From assembly GCA_017473265.1 (NCBI GenBank), contig JAFULQ010000016.1, positions 1-58,019 on the forward strand: 58,019 nucleotides of DNA. Direction: 5' to 3'. The DNA is from Erysipelotrichaceae bacterium. GTDB lineage: Bacteria > Bacillota_I > Bacilli_A > Erysipelotrichales > Erysipelotrichaceae. The notes beneath the pieces were generated by a model, which worked only from the letters and a program-made list of their open reading frames with translations, ran no database searches and was not told the DNA's origin. Both the position numbers and the translations under genes were made by a program. Shown here piece by piece: positions 1,254-9,773 of this stretch (within the stretch, counting starts at the first letter, position 1; each line of letters begins with the position of its first letter).

Positions 1254-1283
1254 GTTGGATGGTTTGAAAGGAAGATTGTGTCT

Positions 1284-2276
1284 ATGGGAATTAAAAGTTT
1301 GAGTAAAATGGGTTGGATAAAAGTGGTTGGTATTAGTAGTGTAATTATGGTTTCTATAGCAGGCGGTATGAATATATATTTTGAAAATAATAAAGTAAAT
1401 AAGGAGGATAAGGCTGAGTCAAAAGCATCATTTTCATTAATAAGCAAGGAAGTTGAAATGGAATATGGAGAGTTGGTATCGGTGGATCCACAGGATTATG
1501 TCAAAGAGTGTACAAATGAAGTGATGAATATGCTTGAGGTAGATTTATATAAAGTTATGGAAAATGGAACTTCTATTGAAAAAATAGATGGTAATAAAAA
1601 GATGTTGGATGTTGGAATTTATTACTTAGTTTTTACTCATAATGAAGAGAAAAAAGAAGTAAAAATAAATGTGGTCGATACACAAGCTCCAGTAATTACA
1701 TTGAAAAAAGAGGAAGTTGAATTGCAGTATGGGAAAAAATGGAATCCTCATATGTATGTGGATTCTGTTAAAGATTGTGTGGATGGTGATTTAGATTATG
1801 TGGTTGAAGGAGAAGTGAATAGTAACAAAGCTGGAATATATGAAATTAATTACAAGGCTGTAGATAAAAATGGTTGTGTATCTAAAGAAGCGTTGAAAGT
1901 TGTAGTTCATGATAAAGAAGTAGTCAGATATGATAATGTTTCTCATAAAGAGGAGTATATAAATCCTGAAGATGGAAAAGTAGACCCAGATTATGATAAG
2001 AATGCTGGATCATCTGGAACAAAAAAAGAGGAAAGCGCAAATGAAAAAGAGGTATTAAAACCGTGGACAGTTGATGAGGTTCCTACTGAGAGAAAGGGTG
2101 ATGGTGATATGGCTTTTAAAACTAAGGAAGAGGCGCTACAATGGGCGAGTAATCAGATTGGTGATGAAAATAGTCAATGGTATGGTTGTAAATTTATGGT
2201 GTCACAAATCCAAAAGTATGGACAGCAAAGGTTGCCTAATGATCCGTGGGCAGTGACTTTTATTTTAGTTAATTAA
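1284..2276 (+). CDS. Membrane-anchored surface protein with two DUF5011-like Ig domains
   Basis: An N-terminal hydrophobic helix (about residues 10-30) anchors the protein with its bulk outside the cell. Two Ig-like domains of the DUF5011 type follow: roughly residues 45-135 and 135-215. The second opens with VDTQAPVITL and has the usual YxVDxVxDxVDGDL and GxYxINYKAVDKNG elements. The C-terminal third is charged and low in complexity, then ends in a small segment with KEEALQWASNQIG. No LPXTG is seen. I prefer ATG at 1284 because AAAGGA is nine bases upstream; a GTG two codons earlier sits too close to it. The secreted protein at 2297 follows in the same direction. Likely an adhesin or stalk component; partner unknown. 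Confidence 0.7.
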   Translation: MGIKSLSKMGWIKVVGISSVIMVSIAGGMNIYFENNKVNKEDKAESKASFSLISKEVEMEYGELVSVDPQDYVKECTNEVMNMLEVDLYKVMENGTSIEKIDGNKKMLDVGIYYLVFTHNEEKKEVKINVVDTQAPVITLKKEEVELQYGKKWNPHMYVDSVKDCVDGDLDYVVEGEVNSNKAGIYEINYKAVDKNGCVSKEALKVVVHDKEVVRYDNVSHKEEYINPEDGKVDPDYDKNAGSSGTKKEESANEKEVLKPWTVDEVPTERKGDGDMAFKTKEEALQWASNQIGDENSQWYGCKFMVSQIQKYGQQRLPNDPWAVTFILVN

Positions 2277-2296: not shown

Positions 2297-5200
2297 ATGA
2301 AAGGAAAGATACTTGTTTTTCTAATAGCGGTACATGTATTTACTTTTCTGTTGGGATATTATCAAAGTGTTAAGATTTTTGCTGAAGCATCTTATCCAAA
2401 AGTGCCTGAGTATTTTAATGAATCTGCAATTAATACAAGGGATGAAAGGGGGTATTTGCATTTTAACGAAACTTCAGCAAGACTTAATGGAGAGAGAGTT
2501 ATTGCGTATTCAGAAGAGATTGGAGAAAACAGTAACAAAGGTAAATATTTTGAAGTGGCAACAATAAAGCCCATTTTTAATTCTGCAACAAATACATATT
2601 CAATTACTGTTTATTTCTATGTTGTAAAATGGCCAGGTAATAAGCCTAATGGTGGTGCTAGTGCAAATTATGGATATTGTTATCCGGATAAATATCTATA
2701 TGTAGATGTCTTTGATGGAGATGTTATTGAGTATACGGAAAATAATCCTAATGTAGATGGTGATTTGGTTGCTAGTGGTGTAATGAATAATCATCGAATT
2801 GATAATAATAGCGATGCGGGAAACCGCATTTTTTTACAAGGTGTTTATAGGGTTGATAGTGTTACTCTGACAGGATTGTCTGCTGGCAATTATGTTTTGC
2901 GTTTATGGGATAATAATGAGGGAGCATCTAATGCAATGAATTGCGGTGGATTGTTGGGTTATCATGAATTAATTTTAACTCCAGATTTTCCAGAATATGC
3001 TATTCAGTATGATTATCAAGGTGGAAGTTTGCCTAGCGGGAAAGTAAATCCAAAAGGGTATTCTAAAGAAGATACGGTTAATATTATTTCTCCTGAAAAG
3101 AACGGTCACACTTTTGTAGGATGGAATGAAATATTACAAACTACTGATTGGAGAAAAGGAAGAGTAACAAAGTCTACAGGAAGAGCGGCTCCAGATAGTT
3201 CATATAAGAATGCAATCTATAGTGATTTTTTGCGAGTAGAAGCTGGGGTGACGTATTCATTAAAGAATATTGGTGATAGTAAAGTTGATGTTCATTTTTT
3301 TGATATGAATATGAATGTTAAGGAAAGTGAATATTTTGATTCATCAACTAAAACAACTTTTACACCATCAGAAACAAGATATGTGAGATTTTGTTTTGCT
3401 CGAGGGCATAGTAGCAATTCGCCAGGTGCTTTGCAAATAGTATCATTCAAACAACCTGGAGTAACTATACCAGCTGGTTCTACTGGGAACAGAAAGTATA
3501 TAGCTAATTGGACGGCAAGTAAAATAAAATTAACATTGAATCCAAATGGAGGTAGTGGTGGCACCAAAAATGTTTGGTATTACTATGGTATTAATAAGTT
3601 CTATAGCAATGAGGCATGTACAACACAAATTTCTACTATTATTAGACCAACAAGAACTGGATATGATTATGTACATTATTATGGTGATGGAACTTGTGGT
3701 GGAAATAATGGTGAACGATATATAGCATATGATGGTGTTGAGTTTGCATCAGATTTATGTACGGATATTTATAAAGACGCTACATTGTATGCTAAATGGA
3801 ATCCCCAAAACAACATTTCATATAAAGTGAATCATTATCTTATGGATACGGATGGAAATTATCAATTACAAGCAACTGAAAACAAAACAGGAACAACGGA
3901 TTCATTAGTTACTCCAACGAAAAAAGACTATGGAGTTGGAATCCAATTTAATGCGAAGAAAAGTACACCATTGCCTGTGGTAATTAAAGGAGATCATTCA
4001 ACAGTCATTAATTACTACTATGAAAGAATTAAATATACGATTACATTAAATAAATCGAATGGTATTGATAATGTTACAGGCGATGGAACTTATTATTATG
4101 GTAAAAATGTTGCTATTAATGCTACAGTGAAAAGAGGATATCAATGGCAAAAATGGAGTAGTAATACAAACTATTTGCCAGGTAGTACAAATCAATTGTA
4201 TTCGTTCAATATGCCGGCTAATAATGTCACATTGTTGGCAACTGCAGAGGTTATTCCATATAACATAACGTATATTCCAAGTGGAGGAATTATGCCAAGT
4301 ACGTATGTAAAAGTGTATACCGTTGAGGATGAAGTAAAATTGCCTACGATTAAGAAAGAAGGATATGTTTTTATAGGATGGTATGATAATAAAGGTTTTA
4401 ATGGAAATGTTATTGAAAAGATAGAAAAAGGGACTATTGGTGATAAACAGTATTTTGCTAAATTTGTACCTATTACATATATTGTTGAGTATCATGGCAA
4501 TGGAAATACAAGTGGTTCAATGGAACCTTCTGTGCATGTTTATGATCAGCTAAAAGAATTGAATAGGAGCACTTATAAAAAAGTGAATAGTAGTTTTGTT
4601 GGTTGGAATACTGAAGCGGATGGATCTGGTGTTTGGTATAAAGACGGGCAAGAAGTTGTAAATTTAACAAATCAACAAGGTGATATTATTCGATTGTATG
4701 CTCAATATAATTCGAGTAATTATGTTGTTAATTTTGATTCGAATGGTGGATTACCTCCAAGTTTTACAACAATAGAACAAGTATTCGGAGAACCATTAAA
4801 GAAATTACCTACGACATCTTTTAATGGTTATGAGTTTGACGGTTGGTATAGTTCTAAAACTGGAGGAACAAAGATATCAGTAGATACAGTTCCTACGGAA
4901 AATACTACGTATTATGCTCATTGGAAAGTGATTCCTCCGAATGTTGTAGCCAACAAGAAATACTATTATCAAAATACGACAGTTACAGTCGATATGTTAA
5001 TACAAAATGCAACCGCTAATGATTGCGTAGATGGTAACATTTCTAACCAAATAATTGTTAGTAAGGTAGTATACCCAAATGGTACAGTTGTTCATTATCC
5101 AACAGTTATTGATACAACAAATGTAGGGGATATTTCTGTTGAATATAAGGTTACGAATAAAAGAGGAGCATCGGCAGTAACGGTAAATACGGTTACTATT

Positions 5201-5410
5201 ATTGCTAAAGGAAATCAAAGTGATAACTTATCAAAAACATCTAGCGTATATTCTCGATTTATTGCAGATTTAGCATTAGATGATGGAAAAAATGCCAAAG
5301 AAACATTGAATTCAAAGTCTATATGGAATTTGGAAGAATATAAAACTAAACTAGAGAAAGCACTGTCAAATAATCGTCCATTGGAAGAGTATGAATATAT
5401 TAATAGATAA
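2297..5410 (+). CDS. Large secreted protein with InlB-type (Flg_new) repeats
   Basis: 1037 aa with an N-terminal signal peptide (ILVFLIAVHVFTFLLGYY, cleavage near residue 30). The first 230 residues form an unassigned domain. Several Listeria-Bacteroides/InlB B-type repeats follow, recognisable by a V/I-x-Y/F-D/N-x-N/Q-GG start and an F-x-GW ending (GHTFVGW, GYVFIGWY, SSFVGWNT, GYEFDGWY), each closing with an A-x-W/Y/F strand. A MucBP-like stretch lies near residues 510-570 (VNHYLMDTDGNY), and a DUF5011-like domain near 870-965 (ATANDCVDGNIS-type). There is no LPXTG, terminal membrane helix or other visible cell-wall anchor, so it may be released or held by the neighbouring pilus. Strong AAGGAGGG RBS, 20 bases after the previous gene. 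Predicted adhesin. Confidence 0.75.
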   Translation: MKGKILVFLIAVHVFTFLLGYYQSVKIFAEASYPKVPEYFNESAINTRDERGYLHFNETSARLNGERVIAYSEEIGENSNKGKYFEVATIKPIFNSATNTYSITVYFYVVKWPGNKPNGGASANYGYCYPDKYLYVDVFDGDVIEYTENNPNVDGDLVASGVMNNHRIDNNSDAGNRIFLQGVYRVDSVTLTGLSAGNYVLRLWDNNEGASNAMNCGGLLGYHELILTPDFPEYAIQYDYQGGSLPSGKVNPKGYSKEDTVNIISPEKNGHTFVGWNEILQTTDWRKGRVTKSTGRAAPDSSYKNAIYSDFLRVEAGVTYSLKNIGDSKVDVHFFDMNMNVKESEYFDSSTKTTFTPSETRYVRFCFARGHSSNSPGALQIVSFKQPGVTIPAGSTGNRKYIANWTASKIKLTLNPNGGSGGTKNVWYYYGINKFYSNEACTTQISTIIRPTRTGYDYVHYYGDGTCGGNNGERYIAYDGVEFASDLCTDIYKDATLYAKWNPQNNISYKVNHYLMDTDGNYQLQATENKTGTTDSLVTPTKKDYGVGIQFNAKKSTPLPVVIKGDHSTVINYYYERIKYTITLNKSNGIDNVTGDGTYYYGKNVAINATVKRGYQWQKWSSNTNYLPGSTNQLYSFNMPANNVTLLATAEVIPYNITYIPSGGIMPSTYVKVYTVEDEVKLPTIKKEGYVFIGWYDNKGFNGNVIEKIEKGTIGDKQYFAKFVPITYIVEYHGNGNTSGSMEPSVHVYDQLKELNRSTYKKVNSSFVGWNTEADGSGVWYKDGQEVVNLTNQQGDIIRLYAQYNSSNYVVNFDSNGGLPPSFTTIEQVFGEPLKKLPTTSFNGYEFDGWYSSKTGGTKISVDTVPTENTTYYAHWKVIPPNVVANKKYYYQNTTVTVDMLIQNATANDCVDGNISNQIIVSKVVYPNGTVVHYPTVIDTTNVGDISVEYKVTNKRGASAVTVNTVTIIAKGNQSDNLSKTSSVYSRFIADLALDDGKNAKETLNSKSIWNLEEYKTKLEKALSNNRPLEEYEYINR

Positions 5411-5430
5411 GAACAAAGATGAATTTATGA

Positions 5431-5463
5431 AGAAGCATGAATGTGAATGCTTCTTTTTGTTTT
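5431..5463 (+). terminator. Terminator between the surface protein and the pilin gene
   Basis: Stem AGAAGCAT (5431-5438) with ATGCTTCT (5447-5454), then TTTTGTTTT. It separates transcription of the large surface protein from the pilus operon starting at 5520. Confidence 0.8.
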
Positions 5464-5519: not shown

Positions 5520-5705
5520 ATGAAAGAAATTATTAGTGAATACATCTGGGTTGCAATTTGCATCTTAGCTGGAATTGCTGTAATTGTATTTGTTCCTGAT
5601 TTTGTATCAACAGTGTTTGGCTACTTAGAAACAATGGTAACAGAGTTTTCTAGTGAAGTGTCTGAATGGGTGGGACAAATCCAATTACCTACAACAGGTT
5701 CATAA
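5520..5705 (+). CDS. Small Flp/Tad-like pilin ending in LPTTG, 61 aa
   Basis: Predicted major pilin of the following Tad-like system. It begins directly with MKEIISEYIW and has a single hydrophobic helix (about residues 9-30), then a short amphipathic tail. The EY pair resembles the Glu-Tyr of Flp pilins, but there is no leader or cleavage Gly, so it looks leaderless. The last six residues are LPTTGS, an exact LPXTG sortase motif but without the usual hydrophobic tail. The N-terminus recurs in the 8876 (MKDIFTEYIW) and 9022 (MKDFISKYLW) proteins. The RBS AAAGGAGGTGAAAAT is near perfect, fitting high expression. A terminator precedes it and a hairpin follows. Assignment as a pilin rests on size, helix and context. 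Confidence 0.6.
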   Translation: MKEIISEYIWVAICILAGIAVIVFVPDFVSTVFGYLETMVTEFSSEVSEWVGQIQLPTTGS

Positions 5706-5711
5706 TTTTAA

Positions 5712-5737
5712 AGGGACTCTCTAAAAATGAGGGTCCT
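5712..5737 (+). other. mRNA hairpin after the pilin gene
   Basis: AGGGACTCTC (5712-5721) pairs with GAGGGTCCT (5729-5737) with one bulged G and a 7-nt AU loop. No T-run follows, so it is more likely a 3'-end stabiliser or partial attenuator. It could raise pilin mRNA above that of the machinery genes behind it. Confidence 0.45.
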
Positions 5738-5763
5738 AATATTATATAGGAATGGTGATATAT

Positions 5764-6174
5764 ATGAAAATCATAGTGAGAATATTTGGTCTTAGTGTCA
5801 TGTTGTTTTATGTAATACTAATTTTTTTGCAAATGATTGACTACAACATTAGACGAGATGAGTTAAATCAGTGTATTTCTATGGCAATGACAAGTACTCA
5901 AATTATTATGATGGAAAACATTGAAGATCAAATTTTAGGAACAAATAATTGTAGGAAAAAAATAACATCGAACAAAGAATATCTAGATGAATTTAAAAAC
6001 AATTTTCATGTGTTGACATCAACAAATACCGATTACAAAATCCACGTTTATGCAATTGACTATACAACTGGATTATTGTCAATTGGTGTTGAGGGTCAGT
6101 TTTTAACATTAAATGGAATTAAAAAAAAGTTTAATAGTCGAAAGACCTCTGTAATTGATGTGTTACATGAATAG
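5764..6174 (+). CDS. TadE/TadG-like pseudopilin, 136 aa
   Basis: One N-terminal hydrophobic helix (IFGLSVMLFYVILIFLQM), then a mixed region from about residue 30 that ends in beta-strand-rich sequence (YKIHVYAIDYTTGLLSIGV). This layout is that of the minor pseudopilins encoded in Tad loci. An ATG four codons earlier exists, but GGTGAT lies at the right distance from 5764. The ATPase gene follows 12 bases later. No prepilin-peptidase site is visible. The family is inferred from architecture and neighbours, not from a strong motif. Confidence 0.55.
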   Translation: MKIIVRIFGLSVMLFYVILIFLQMIDYNIRRDELNQCISMAMTSTQIIMMENIEDQILGTNNCRKKITSNKEYLDEFKNNFHVLTSTNTDYKIHVYAIDYTTGLLSIGVEGQFLTLNGIKKKFNSRKTSVIDVLHE

Positions 6175-6186
6175 AAAGGAAAGTAG

Positions 6187-7257
6187 ATGATGGACACAAT
6201 TAAAATACCAATAAATGATGAGACTTTTGGAAAATTATATCCATATATTATTGATGATTTGATAACCGATATCCGTTGGAATGGACGATTCTTAATGATA
6301 GAACATCTAACAAAGGGATATATGAAAACAGATGATGTATTATCTGAAGAATGGTTAAGTATTTTGACAAAGAATATAGCGACAAGCAATGATTTAAACT
6401 TTAATCCGACACAACCATCTTTGGATGCTTCTACTGATGATTTGCGATTTCATGTGTATCATCCGTCTATAACTGGTGAAAATAAAACGATTTTATCGAT
6501 AAGAAAAACACCAGCTGTTGCTCGAATTACTGAAGAAAGTTTCATTGAAACAAATTATGGCGATTTACTTTTGTTGAGATTGCTTAATTTACTAATTACG
6601 TCGAAATGCAGTGGATTTGTTATTGGGGAAACAGGAGCTGGGAAAACAGAACTTATTAAATTATTAGCTAAATTTATACCAGATCATGAAGTGTGCTTAA
6701 CTGTAGAAGATACGTTTGAATTGCGTTTACCTGTTATTTATCCAAACAAAAATATTAATTCTATTAAAGTGGATAAGTTCTATTCATATGAAAAAGCAAT
6801 AAGAGATGCATTGCGTTCTTTAGTAAAGTATCTGTTTTTAGCTGAAGCAAGAGGAAGAGAAATTACTCGAATTGTAGAAGGAGCATCCACTGGATGTTCG
6901 GTTTGGACAACTATTCATGCAGATAATACATGGGAAGTAATAAGTCGCGTAAAAGATATGACTGGAACAGATAAAGATGGTAATGATTATGAAAATAGAA
7001 TTTATACATTTTTTGATTGCGCTATTAAAGTTAAAAAGATGGTTAAAAAAGGTTCCATTCGAAGAATTGATCAAATATGTTTTTTTGAAAGAACAAACGA
7101 GAAGAATCAAGTAATTGTTTTTTATAAAGACGGCAAATATACAGGGAATAAAATACCCAAAAGTATTTTAGATAGATTTAATGAATGTGAACAGTTTGAA
7201 TCGTTTAAGAAATTGTGGAAAGCAACATTTGGAGGTGACTTAAGTGCAGAAAAATAG
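6187..7257 (+). CDS. CpaF/TadA-type secretion ATPase
   Basis: Cytoplasmic hexameric ATPase of the VirB11/PilT/CpaF superfamily, expected to power assembly of the pilin. Walker A GETGAGKT is at residues 147-154, the Walker B region KYLFLAEARG at about 214-223, and the His box TTIHADN at 241-247. The N-terminal domain (1-110) is shorter than in typical CpaF, and there is no receiver-like domain. The Walker B segment is diverged: the usual R-P-D before the hydrophobic run is replaced by LVK, and GEVRG by AEARG. Its end overlaps the GTG start of the platform gene by 14 bases. Family confident; exact pilus subtype less so. Confidence 0.85.
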   Translation: MMDTIKIPINDETFGKLYPYIIDDLITDIRWNGRFLMIEHLTKGYMKTDDVLSEEWLSILTKNIATSNDLNFNPTQPSLDASTDDLRFHVYHPSITGENKTILSIRKTPAVARITEESFIETNYGDLLLLRLLNLLITSKCSGFVIGETGAGKTELIKLLAKFIPDHEVCLTVEDTFELRLPVIYPNKNINSIKVDKFYSYEKAIRDALRSLVKYLFLAEARGREITRIVEGASTGCSVWTTIHADNTWEVISRVKDMTGTDKDGNDYENRIYTFFDCAIKVKKMVKKGSIRRIDQICFFERTNEKNQVIVFYKDGKYTGNKIPKSILDRFNECEQFESFKKLWKATFGGDLSAEK

Positions 7258-8752
7258 AAACTTTTGGAGTAATTTTAATATTAAATTACTATTACAAGAC
7301 ATAGAATCTTATGGATACGAATATTCTTTAAAGAAATTTTTGTTACATACGGTAGGTTGTTTTGTTTTTATTGGATGTATTGCATATATCTGTAAATTAC
7401 AAATGTTTTTCATATTAATACTTGGTGTATTATCACTATTTGTTTTTCCATTTATTGTTCGTTCGCAGTTTGTACAGTTATATGAAATAAAACGATTTCA
7501 AATGGTTGTTACTTATTTGGAAAATATTATTCCAATTTTTAAAAGTAAACCGATAATTACACATGCATGGCAACAGGTTGCGGAATTGTTAGATGGAGAT
7601 ATGAAAAAAGTTATTCATAAAGCAACAGATTATGTGTTATTCAATACAAGTGATGTTCATCCATATAAAACTGCATTTTCTATGATAGAAGAAGCCTTTC
7701 CAAATAGTCGTATACATGCAGTTCATCGTATGATGTACACAGTTCAAGAACAAAACTCTGTGGATTTTGCTCATGCTTCTGACAATTTATTCTTTGATAT
7801 AGATGCTTGGATACATCGAAGCTATTCTTTTCAAAAAGAGTTAAAGCATCGTCGAAATTTATTGATATTTATTTGTTTACTAACCTTAGCAATTAGTTGT
7901 TGGTTTATTGTTGTATATTCAGCTAGTGATGTATTAGCAGATTTTGTTAATTTGTTGCCGTATCAAATTTCCACATCTATTTTCATATTTGTAATGTTTA
8001 TCTTTATTACGTTTGTTTTTATTAAAATGAATGGTAGATGGATGGTTGATGATAAAACAAAACGAAAAGAGCATGAGACGGAAGAAATTTTCAAGAAATA
8101 TAAAATGACAAATCAAGCAAAAGCGACAAAGTTAGATATTTTATTATCTGTAATTTTGATGAGTATAGCGATTTATAACTATTTTATAAATAATATTGCA
8201 TTTGCTACATTATTTATTATTTCTAGTTTCGTACTTCTTGTTCAAAAAAGGAGGAAATACTTTTCATATAAAAAGAGAATTAAAAAATATATAGAGATTG
8301 AATTTCCTATTTTCTTAAGAGAAGTATCATTAAATTTATATAATATGACAGTGGTTAATGCTATTAGAAATAGTCGCGATACAGTATCTCCAATATTGGA
8401 TTATTACATTCTTGAATTTCTGGAAAATGTTATGAAAGATCCAAATACAATTTATCCATATGATAGTTTTTTAAAGGAGTACGATTTACCAGATATTCGT
8501 TCAGCGATGAAAACTTTATATAATATGAATGAAATTGATTATGAATATCGTCAAAAACAAATAAGTTCATTAATTGAACGTAATCAAATTATGCTTGCTC
8601 GTTCTGAAATCCTTAGAAACGAGGATGCTCTTTTAGGTGTTGAGGTTTTGAACTATATTCCAGTTTTATTGTTTGTGATTCAATTGTTAGTTGTTATGGT
8701 TTTATCATTAACGTGGTTAATGCAAACGGTAATACAATCTATTCAGTTTTAA
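7244..8752 (+). CDS. Fused TadB/TadC-type inner-membrane platform protein
   Basis: 502 aa with hydrophobic pairs near residues 30-70, 200-260, 290-330 and 465-500, flanking two cytoplasmic helical regions. This matches two T2SSF-type domains in one chain, whereas classical Tad loci use separate TadB and TadC. It would sit in the membrane above the ATPase as the pilus assembly platform. The GTG start at 7244 is chosen because GGAGGTGA lies five bases upstream, inside the end of the ATPase gene, so translation is coupled. It could alternatively be one diverged domain plus an unrelated membrane region. Confidence 0.7.
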   Translation: MQKNRNFWSNFNIKLLLQDIESYGYEYSLKKFLLHTVGCFVFIGCIAYICKLQMFFILILGVLSLFVFPFIVRSQFVQLYEIKRFQMVVTYLENIIPIFKSKPIITHAWQQVAELLDGDMKKVIHKATDYVLFNTSDVHPYKTAFSMIEEAFPNSRIHAVHRMMYTVQEQNSVDFAHASDNLFFDIDAWIHRSYSFQKELKHRRNLLIFICLLTLAISCWFIVVYSASDVLADFVNLLPYQISTSIFIFVMFIFITFVFIKMNGRWMVDDKTKRKEHETEEIFKKYKMTNQAKATKLDILLSVILMSIAIYNYFINNIAFATLFIISSFVLLVQKRRKYFSYKKRIKKYIEIEFPIFLREVSLNLYNMTVVNAIRNSRDTVSPILDYYILEFLENVMKDPNTIYPYDSFLKEYDLPDIRSAMKTLYNMNEIDYEYRQKQISSLIERNQIMLARSEILRNEDALLGVEVLNYIPVLLFVIQLLVVMVLSLTWLMQTVIQSIQF

Positions 8753-8765
8753 ATATGGTGATTTT

Positions 8766-8879
8766 ATGAATAAAATTGTAGAAGAAATGTGTTGTTGTAT
8801 TGTAGAGTTATTAATTTGTATTGGAGGCGTATCGTTATTGCAAATAATTTATACACTTATAGTGGAGATGCTTGTATGA
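8766..8879 (+). CDS. Tiny hydrophobic pilin-like protein, 37 aa
   Basis: ATG at 8766 after GGTGAT. 37 codons encode a short N-terminus (MNKIVEEM), three Cys in a row and one hydrophobic helix. The stop TGA (8877-8879) overlaps the next ATG (8876) as ATGA, typical of coupled genes, and this argues that it is real despite its size. It resembles the N-terminal helix of its pilin-like neighbours. Role unknown: minor pilin, assembly factor or leader for 8876. Confidence 0.5.
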   Translation: MNKIVEEMCCCIVELLICIGGVSLLQIIYTLIVEMLV

Positions 8880-9022
8880 AAGATATATTTACAGAATATA
8901 TTTGGTTTTTATTAACTTTATTTGGTTCATTGTTAGGACTACAAATGTTGTTAACATTGTTTTTTAAAGAGCCAAATGCAATTTACAATATTGTAAATAC
9001 GATTTTAGGAGGCTTAATGTGA
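8876..9022 (+). CDS. Small pilin-like membrane protein, 48 aa
   Basis: The product opens with MKDIFTEYIW, close to the MKEIISEYIW of the 5520 pilin, followed by a long hydrophobic helix and a short tail ending ILGGLM. I place the start at this ATG (GGAG eight bases upstream) rather than at a TTG 29 codons earlier, because the homologous N-terminus begins here and the upstream reading overlaps the 37-aa gene. Its stop overlaps the next start as TGATG. Predicted minor pilin. It lacks the LPTTG end of 5520. Confidence 0.6.
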   Translation: MKDIFTEYIWFLLTLFGSLLGLQMLLTLFFKEPNAIYNIVNTILGGLM

Positions 9023-9432
9023 TGAAAGATTTTATATCTAAATATTTATGGATTTGTGTAGAAGTATTGTTTGCGGTTGCTTCTTTAACTATGATTCTTT
9101 ATATATATGATAATGTGGATTTGGTTAATTCGGCTGCAGCATATCATTTACAACAAACAATAATTTCTGAAAATTTATTAGTTGATTATGAAATTCCTAC
9201 GATTAATGATACTTCGTTTATTGTTAATGGCGATATTCTTGAACTAAATAGTGAATTCAATTGGAAAAATTATGTTAGCGCTAGTGATTCGCAAGGTAGT
9301 GATTTAATTGGTTATGTAATTATGAATGGAAATGTAGATACAAGTATAGCTGGAAAATATGAAGTGGAATTTATTTTAAATTGGAATGGAGAGTCTATTT
9401 CTAAAAAAGCTGATTTTTTCGTTAATGAGTGA
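9022..9432 (+). CDS. Pilin-like helix fused to a DUF5011-like Ig domain
   Basis: 136 aa. Residues 1-30 repeat the pilin-like start (MKDFISKYLW plus a hydrophobic helix). From about residue 58 the sequence reads as a DUF5011-type domain: EIPTINDTSF, an ASDSQGSDLIGYV segment, then GNVDTSIAGKYEVEF and a closing strand. The same domain type occurs in the 1284 and 2297 surface proteins, linking them to the pilus. AGGAGG lies nine bases before the ATG; a GTG one codon earlier is possible. Likely a tip or minor subunit displayed outside the cell. Confidence 0.6.
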   Translation: MKDFISKYLWICVEVLFAVASLTMILYIYDNVDLVNSAAAYHLQQTIISENLLVDYEIPTINDTSFIVNGDILELNSEFNWKNYVSASDSQGSDLIGYVIMNGNVDTSIAGKYEVEFILNWNGESISKKADFFVNE

Positions 9433-9440
9433 GGTGTAAA

Positions 9441-9773
9441 ATGAAGGGAATTATTGAAACGTTTGTTGGTTGTATATATTTAGTGTTAGTCGTATTTACT
9501 ATAAGCAGTTTTAGTGTTGCTGGAATGCAAATTATGATGGCGCGTCATTACCATACTTCTATTATTAATCAGATTCAAGCTTCTTATTATGAGGTTGATA
9601 TAAATGAAATAAATAAAAAGCTAAAGGAAGTTTGTCCTACATGGAATGTAACATCAACTGTTATTAATTCTGTGAATAACCGCCAGGATCGCCTTGTTAC
9701 ACTAACGTATAATGTATCTTTGCCTTTATTCAATATAACGAAAAAAGGACAGATTGATGGATATGCAAGGTAA
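9441..9773 (+). CDS. TadE-like pseudopilin, 110 aa
   Basis: Begins MKGIIETFVG followed by a hydrophobic helix to about residue 33. The Glu near position 6 recalls the conserved Glu of type IV pseudopilins. The remainder is a short helix and strand-rich region ending LTYNVSLPLFNITKKG, typical of TadE-like C-termini. ATG 9441 is preferred over the GTG at 9429 because GAGGTG lies five bases before it. It is the last clear gene of the pilus operon, separated from 9846 by a new promoter. Confidence 0.6.
   Translation: MKGIIETFVGCIYLVLVVFTISSFSVAGMQIMMARHYHTSIINQIQASYYEVDINEINKKLKEVCPTWNVTSTVINSVNNRQDRLVTLTYNVSLPLFNITKKGQIDGYAR

Follow-up and report, generated by a model that had tools for sequence, protein, structure and literature searches.

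A minimal Tad-like type 4 filament operon with leaderless putative pilins in Erysipelotrichaceae

The 58,019-nucleotide contig JAFULQ010000016.1 of an Erysipelotrichaceae bacterium (hereafter the window, taken at its full length) carries on its plus strand, at 5520–9773, a minimal Tad-like type 4 filament operon composed of a CpaF-like ATPase, a fused TadB-TadC platform protein and six small membrane proteins. Its pilin-like subunits begin directly at a conserved Met-Lys, with neither a leader peptide nor a canonical cleavage motif, and no A24 prepilin peptidase gene is linked to them. Judging from the sequences, the operon probably encodes a minimal Tad-like (type 4c-like) monoderm machine whose pilins are natively leaderless and are assembled without cleavage. 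With less assurance, we lean towards the broader view that a whole lineage of type 4 filaments has abandoned prepilin processing in Erysipelotrichales and in one or more further families of the class, its pilins being mature-like, with an uncleaved Met-Lys and no N-methylation.

Cleavage of a leader by an A24 peptidase is treated as a defining step of every type 4 filament, and class III signal peptides are used to find pilins. Canonical Flp pilins are made with a Gly-ended leader, the removal of which exposes a helix with Glu5-Tyr6.

Subunits that begin without a leader

Three of the window proteins (61, 48 and 136 amino acids (aa); genes at 5520, 8876 and 9022) start M-K-x-h-h-x-[E/K]-Y, in fuller form MK[ED]hhxxYhW, right at the initiator Met, each from an ATG with a Shine-Dalgarno (SD) sequence 7–9 nt upstream (AGGAGG, GGAG and AGGAGG, respectively). 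A previous reading of the window by a model from its letters (the sequence-only reading) had pointed to these near-identical starts and to the lack of a leader or Gly before the EY pair; both observations held when the DNA upstream of the starts was inspected, as no leader exists there. The corresponding DNA pattern, M-K-x4-[E/K]-Y, occurs 58 times on both strands of the 1.8 Mb genome, and the 4.25 kb operon contains three occurrences where 0.14 were expected (Poisson P about 4e-4). Each of the three marks the start of a gene, a transmembrane stretch comes next, and homologous operons keep the motif. The gene at 5764–6174 has two in-frame starts three to four codons upstream (GTG 5755, ATG 5752), through which no cleavage site is gained, and a GTG at 8789, given for the 48-aa gene in the list of open reading frames (ORFs), is an unsupported alternative start.

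Homologous pilin-like starts, 58 in number, were compared across 30 loci. Of these, 41 lack any in-frame start further upstream, and in 27 a stop lies at most five codons away. An SD-like site precedes 46 of the 58, the remainder mostly overlapping the upstream gene. A misannotated start hiding an upstream leader was excluded by the stop codons and ribosome sites in these homologues.

The N-termini are strongly conserved. M1, K2 and E7 are invariant, and Y8 and G9 at least 90% conserved, in an alignment of 19 Flp-like proteins whose rows were picked by similarity. Position 3 varies among A, S, E, D, K, R, N and H; position 2 holds K or R without exception, and Y8 (or E7) is retained. The start pattern is MKAFFEEYGLVLVVTVIATGM in most genera, MKSFFEEYGFVMLAAVVVIAL in close relatives, MKEIFQEYGGLIIAVILIGLL in G079, MKDFLGEYGLVVVTALVILAF in G467 (another family of the order) and MKAATGELNLTVITIIAIAAV in G405 and G279 (a third family). 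In three genomes of the genus Erysipelothrix (L044:6891, L049:6844, L056:5338) the flp-like gene apparently starts at ATA (GGGGGGTGAGTTGT-ATA-AAA-GCA), preceded at 8 nt by a good ribosome site. ATA is very rarely used as a start codon, and the remaining members begin with ATG, GTG or TTG.

Relation to canonical Flp and TadE pilins

Profile searches of the small window proteins against Flp, TadE and other pilin families gave no match. Since canonical Tad pilins of the same bacterial family scored clearly in the same search (Flp_Fap 1e-10 to 1e-15; TadE neighbours 1e-9 to 1e-11), assignment to a conventional pilin family was rejected, which bears out the sequence-only reading on this point. The window proteins show neither the Flp_Fap match with leader, Gly(−1) and E5-Y6 of an Flp pilin nor a match to PF07811, the TadE/TadF pseudopilin family. 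The canonical pilins carry ordinary leaders (MKNFLFNEESG/QGMVEYGLI, MKNFLFNEESG/QGMVEYGLILVLVSVV or similar, the slash marking the cleavage point), and their loci have an A24 (TadV) gene 4–11 kb from CpaF in 10 of 10 cases. One genome, G129, from the same genus as the named Erysipelothrix loci, holds both a leaderless locus (L044) and a canonical one (L120).

A possible relation to Flp and TadE is suggested by position and by a structural model. In a profile alignment of low confidence, the EYG of the leaderless proteins falls on the EYG of canonical Flp. In four loci with separate TadB and TadC genes (L042, L047, L048, L053), the small proteins stand right after TadC, where Flp and TadE sit, with EYGL at the expected place. 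The predicted structure of the 136-aa TadE-like protein (pLDDT 89) consists of a helix (residues 2–58), a short helix and a three-stranded sheet, and nothing precedes the first helix.

The ATPase and the fused platform

The ATPase matches T2SSE (8.6e-19) and finds GspE, FlaI and CpaF among PDB sequences (CpaF 8rkd, 8.7e-12). In a phylogenetic tree, the ATPases of leaderless loci split from canonical CpaF with support of 100/99. The protein can be classed by sequence as a TadA/CpaF secretion ATPase, though its branch lies outside canonical CpaF, in keeping with the diverged CpaF-type ATPase proposed before.

The 502-aa platform protein has no Pfam match. Split relatives have two adjacent genes instead, the products of which match roughly platform residues 8–270 and 276–494, and one split TadB reached T2SSF at 1.4e-4, just under the cut-off. 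Comparison with hhalign related the N-terminal half of the fusion to split TadB at 99.9% (E 6e-32); in profile comparisons split and canonical TadB matched at 92%, and the fusion and canonical TadB at 66%. A Foldseek search of PDB with the AlphaFold2 model of the platform (pLDDT 85) returned nothing significant, and the TadBC profile matched no PDB sequence. Residues 83–205 of the model align to the whole EpsF cytoplasmic domain (113 of 115 residues, 3.1 Å, Z 8.2), and SpoIIIAB (Z 8.5) and PilC (Z 9.0) appear near the top of the same structural comparison, Z values of 8–9 being modest for helical proteins. The presence of several members of one family at the top and the coverage of the whole domain nevertheless agree with the profile evidence. 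By remote comparison, therefore, the protein appears to be a TadB/TadC (T2SSF) platform made as a single fused polypeptide, as the sequence-only reading had described it. That reading's compact Tad-like machine with at least six small membrane subunits likewise stands: besides ATPase and fusion, the operon has small-subunit genes at 5520, 5764, 8766, 8876, 9022 and 9441.

Distribution of the leaderless loci

A search of the family found the same operon in six genomes (TadBC full-length identity 35–37%), so the arrangement is not special to the window, and versions with split TadB and TadC occur in many genera. The leaderless type is kept across the family and extends to two further families, which makes three in the class. 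Among named genomes, a scan recovered the Flp-like start with intact neighbours in Erysipelothrix inopinata (L109), E. urinaevulpis and Traorella massiliensis (L101). In Anaerorhabdus furcosa (L118:6001–7686), an apparently decayed leaderless locus has flp, TadE-like and CpaB-like genes followed by a CpaF shortened to 116 aa.

Several relatives show further arrangements. In G024 a recombinase gene lies just 3' of tadC (L045:7289–8839), while the 3' part of flp and its tadE neighbour are on another contig (L085:6819–7246); the leaderless flp gene seems to be a mobile-element integration site there. In f12, the third family of the class (L082:5037–12000, L083:5673–11801), a leaderless Tad-like locus is followed by TrbL-like, type IV secretion system (T4SS) pilin-like and FtsK/SpoIIIE-like genes, and a joint machine with these type IV secretion-like genes is possible. 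G537 (L080:7362–8300, L081:4205–4876) has several stand-alone proteins of 223–312 aa starting MKKFFEEYGSVAIIVIVIAVLLL or similar, with no Tad machine nearby.

Prepilin peptidases in the carriers

No A24 gene lies at 5520–9773, as had been claimed from the sequence alone; the genome as a whole is not free of A24. It encodes exactly one such protein, of 233 aa with A24_N_bact and Peptidase_A24 domains, remote from the operon on contig C9 and of ComC type. The comG operon is on C5, with a ComGC that starts MKG/FTVLEM, and ComG is evidently the client of this ComC; the genome has no canonical Tad ATPase. Forty-nine genomes combine a leaderless locus with a listed A24 gene. In none of them do the two lie within 20 kb of each other, and the closest pair on one contig is 156 kb apart; many of these assemblies are fragmented, and the distances describe linkage on the contigs examined.

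Known cleavage rules frame what ComC could do. A review gives leaders of 6–26 aa, always Gly-ended outside archaea (PMC4471445); the ComGC leaders of this family, at three to four residues (MKG/FTVLEM, L131:3752–4042; MRKG/FTMLEM, L129:4067–4360), are shorter. Ala is also an allowed leader end (PMC10191384), and prepilins follow the rule (A/G)x4(D/E) (PMC3244431). For ComC to process the leaderless proteins, it would have to cut after Glu/Asp3 or Lys2, outside the Gly/Ala rule (PMC10191384, PMC3244431).

Gene content of the operon and its surroundings

The genes of the operon mostly overlap or have a few bases between them (Table 1). The 37-aa protein is the probable counterpart of 32–35 aa proteins of relatives that start M[KR]ELhxEY, and the Ig-domain protein starting MKDFISKYLW is a candidate minor or tip pilin. 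Upstream, the gene of the 1037-aa repeat protein is followed by a terminator-like hairpin of its own (5429–5456). Because its C-terminal module of about 150 residues is shared with otherwise different proteins of 446–593 aa in the operons of relatives, the 1037-aa protein is probably part of the system, either as displayed cargo or at the tip; it is a candidate displayed or tip adhesin. A 9-pair hairpin (5713–5737) lies directly 3' of the first flp-like gene and possibly limits read-through or protects the pilin message. A role of this hairpin in controlling stoichiometry was rejected, the short gaps of relatives being too small to hold one.

Table 1. Genes of the filament operon and neighbouring genes in the window
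Feature	Position	Strand	Remarks
332-aa membrane-anchored protein, bacterial Ig-like domain (PF16403)	1278–2276	+	neighbour; membership of the system uncertain
1037-aa secreted protein, List_Bact/InlB-B repeats	2297–5410	+	signal peptide; operon neighbour
Flp-like leaderless major pilin candidate, 61 aa, MKEIISEYIW	5520–5705	+	strong SD; in-frame stop 5 codons upstream, no alternative start; no Pfam match
TadE-like leaderless putative minor pilin, 136 aa, MKIIVRIFGL	5764–6174	+	pilin-type lollipop model
CpaF/TadA-like ATPase, 356 aa	6187–7257	+	Walker A GETGAGKT; T2SSE match
Fused TadB-TadC platform protein, 502 aa	7244–8752	+	GTG start; TadB-like then TadC-like half
37-aa single-helix protein, MNKIVEEMCCCIVELL	8766–8879	+	operon member
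48-aa leaderless pilin-like single-helix protein, MKDIFTEYIW	8876–9022	+	ATGA overlap with upstream 37-aa gene
136-aa leaderless pilin-like single-helix protein, MKDFISKYLW	9022–9432	+	C-terminal bacterial Ig-like domain PF16403, 1.4e-4, below cut-off
110-aa TadE-like leaderless putative pilin, single-helix, MKGIIETF	9441–9773	+	M1, K2 and E6 invariant in 16 homologues

Comparison with known systems

With Tad/Flp (type 4c) systems, the window operon shares a CpaF-type ATPase, a TadB/TadC platform and several small Flp- or TadE-like single-helix subunits, with the E-Y pair at the helix start; split relatives also have RcpC/CpaB. It differs in lacking a leader, Gly(−1), TadV, TadZ and any Flp_Fap or TadE profile match, in the fusion of TadB and TadC, and in the separate branch of its ATPase. 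Neither TadZ/CpaE nor RcpC/CpaB is among the window operon genes, and a TadZ-sized gene was found in the canonical loci only. Taken strictly, the operon falls outside the Tad systems, since Flp, TadE, TadV and TadZ all go unrecognised, and we infer that it works like one. The Com pilus of Firmicutes (ComGA-ComGG, ComC), encoded in the same genome, is likewise a minimal monoderm type 4 filament with a single-protein platform; it differs in that its pilins keep G/FTxLE cleavage sites, its ATPase belongs to a distinct family and ComC serves it.

Tad-like loci without any protein bearing a prepilin motif have been described in some Clostridia and Desulfitobacterium (Imam et al. 2011, PMC3244431). 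Unlike the window, these contain tadV and tadZ, and no conserved leaderless M-K-x4-E-Y subunits are described there. Bulleidia extructa, also of Erysipelotrichales, has a canonical tad operon that begins with tadV and encodes conventional pilins (PMC12786226), a locus type different from that of the window and resembling L120–L125. In the open literature (subscription papers being outside the scope) we found no description of natively leaderless or peptidase-independent pilins.

Assembly without cleavage and its alternatives

In the favoured model, all that is left of the leader is Met-Lys: the helix has no Gly in front of it, and the E-Y pair occupies positions 7–8. The pilins would insert with the N-terminus and Lys2 inside, via SRP/YidC or Sec. 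Met1-Lys2 would be retained because methionine aminopeptidase is inactive before Lys. The pilins would then diffuse to the fused TadBC, where the CpaF-like ATPase would pull them into the filament without cleavage or N-methylation, and Lys2 together with Glu6/Glu7 may replace the pairing of N-terminus and Glu5 in ordinary pilins. Shaft or initiator roles would fall to the 61-, 48- and 37-aa proteins and minor or tip positions to the Ig-domain and TadE-like pilins, and the adhesin on display would be the 1037-aa repeat protein.

Several observations count against this model. Nearly all carriers, the window genome included, possess a ComC-type A24 protein, so that its absence from the locus leaves room for processing. 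One genus, g32 (G032, G077, G104), has no detectable A24 and keeps ComGA and a cleavable ComGC; the missing A24 may be a detection gap, or an unrecognised peptidase may exist. The complete absence of A24 in g32 was dropped as proof, since a cleavable ComGC is present. A weak A24 match in G104 proved to be a PAP2-type phosphatase-like ORF, and the window ComC used as query found no match in the genus. G095 has neither A24 nor ComGA, but the genome is only 80% complete, and the likeness of its locus to the f12 type may point to contamination. Leaderless and canonical Flp profiles match over six columns only (51%), a PDB fold search with the TadE-like model gave no significant pilin match and no pilin family that stood out, and one variant (G159, L050) lacks the E-Y pair.

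The presence of ComC is also the starting point of an alternative that we regard as unlikely, in which an ultra-short M-K-x leader is still cut by ComC and the system is an ordinary peptidase-dependent Tad variant. The three-residue leader of the genome's own ComGC speaks for it, as does the Ala at position 3 of the Flp-like protein in many relatives (PMC10191384). In the window, however, the three EY-type proteins have Glu or Asp as residue 3, and a cut after it would place Glu at +3/+4 instead of +5, leaving the (A/G)x4(D/E) rule unmet (PMC3244431). Position 3 is moreover the one that varies while its conserved neighbours stay, and A24 is linked to 0 of 49 loci. A short pseudopilus-like, peptidase-free device that pushes the large repeat protein either out of the envelope or onto it would fit the tiny operon subunits and the large Sec-signal protein, with its shared C-terminal module, in or beside most fused-type operons. 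We consider it improbable: Erysipelothrix-type loci have no such protein, and the large proteins have signal peptides of their own and can cross the membrane without this machine. It is more doubtful still that the small proteins, rather than being pilins, serve as single-helix accessory subunits and that the ATPase-platform complex does something else. They match no pilin family and their profile link to Flp is weak, yet they occupy the Flp/TadE position, retain EYGL, occur several to an operon and include one with a lollipop model.

Should assembly without cleavage be correct, a conserved leaderless lineage would show that leader cleavage is dispensable in a type 4 filament and would explain machines whose pilins were missed by signal-peptide searches. 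It would also provide a natural test of the roles of the free N-terminus and Glu5 in assembly, and the cultured carriers Erysipelothrix inopinata (L109) and Traorella massiliensis (L101) make the proposal testable.

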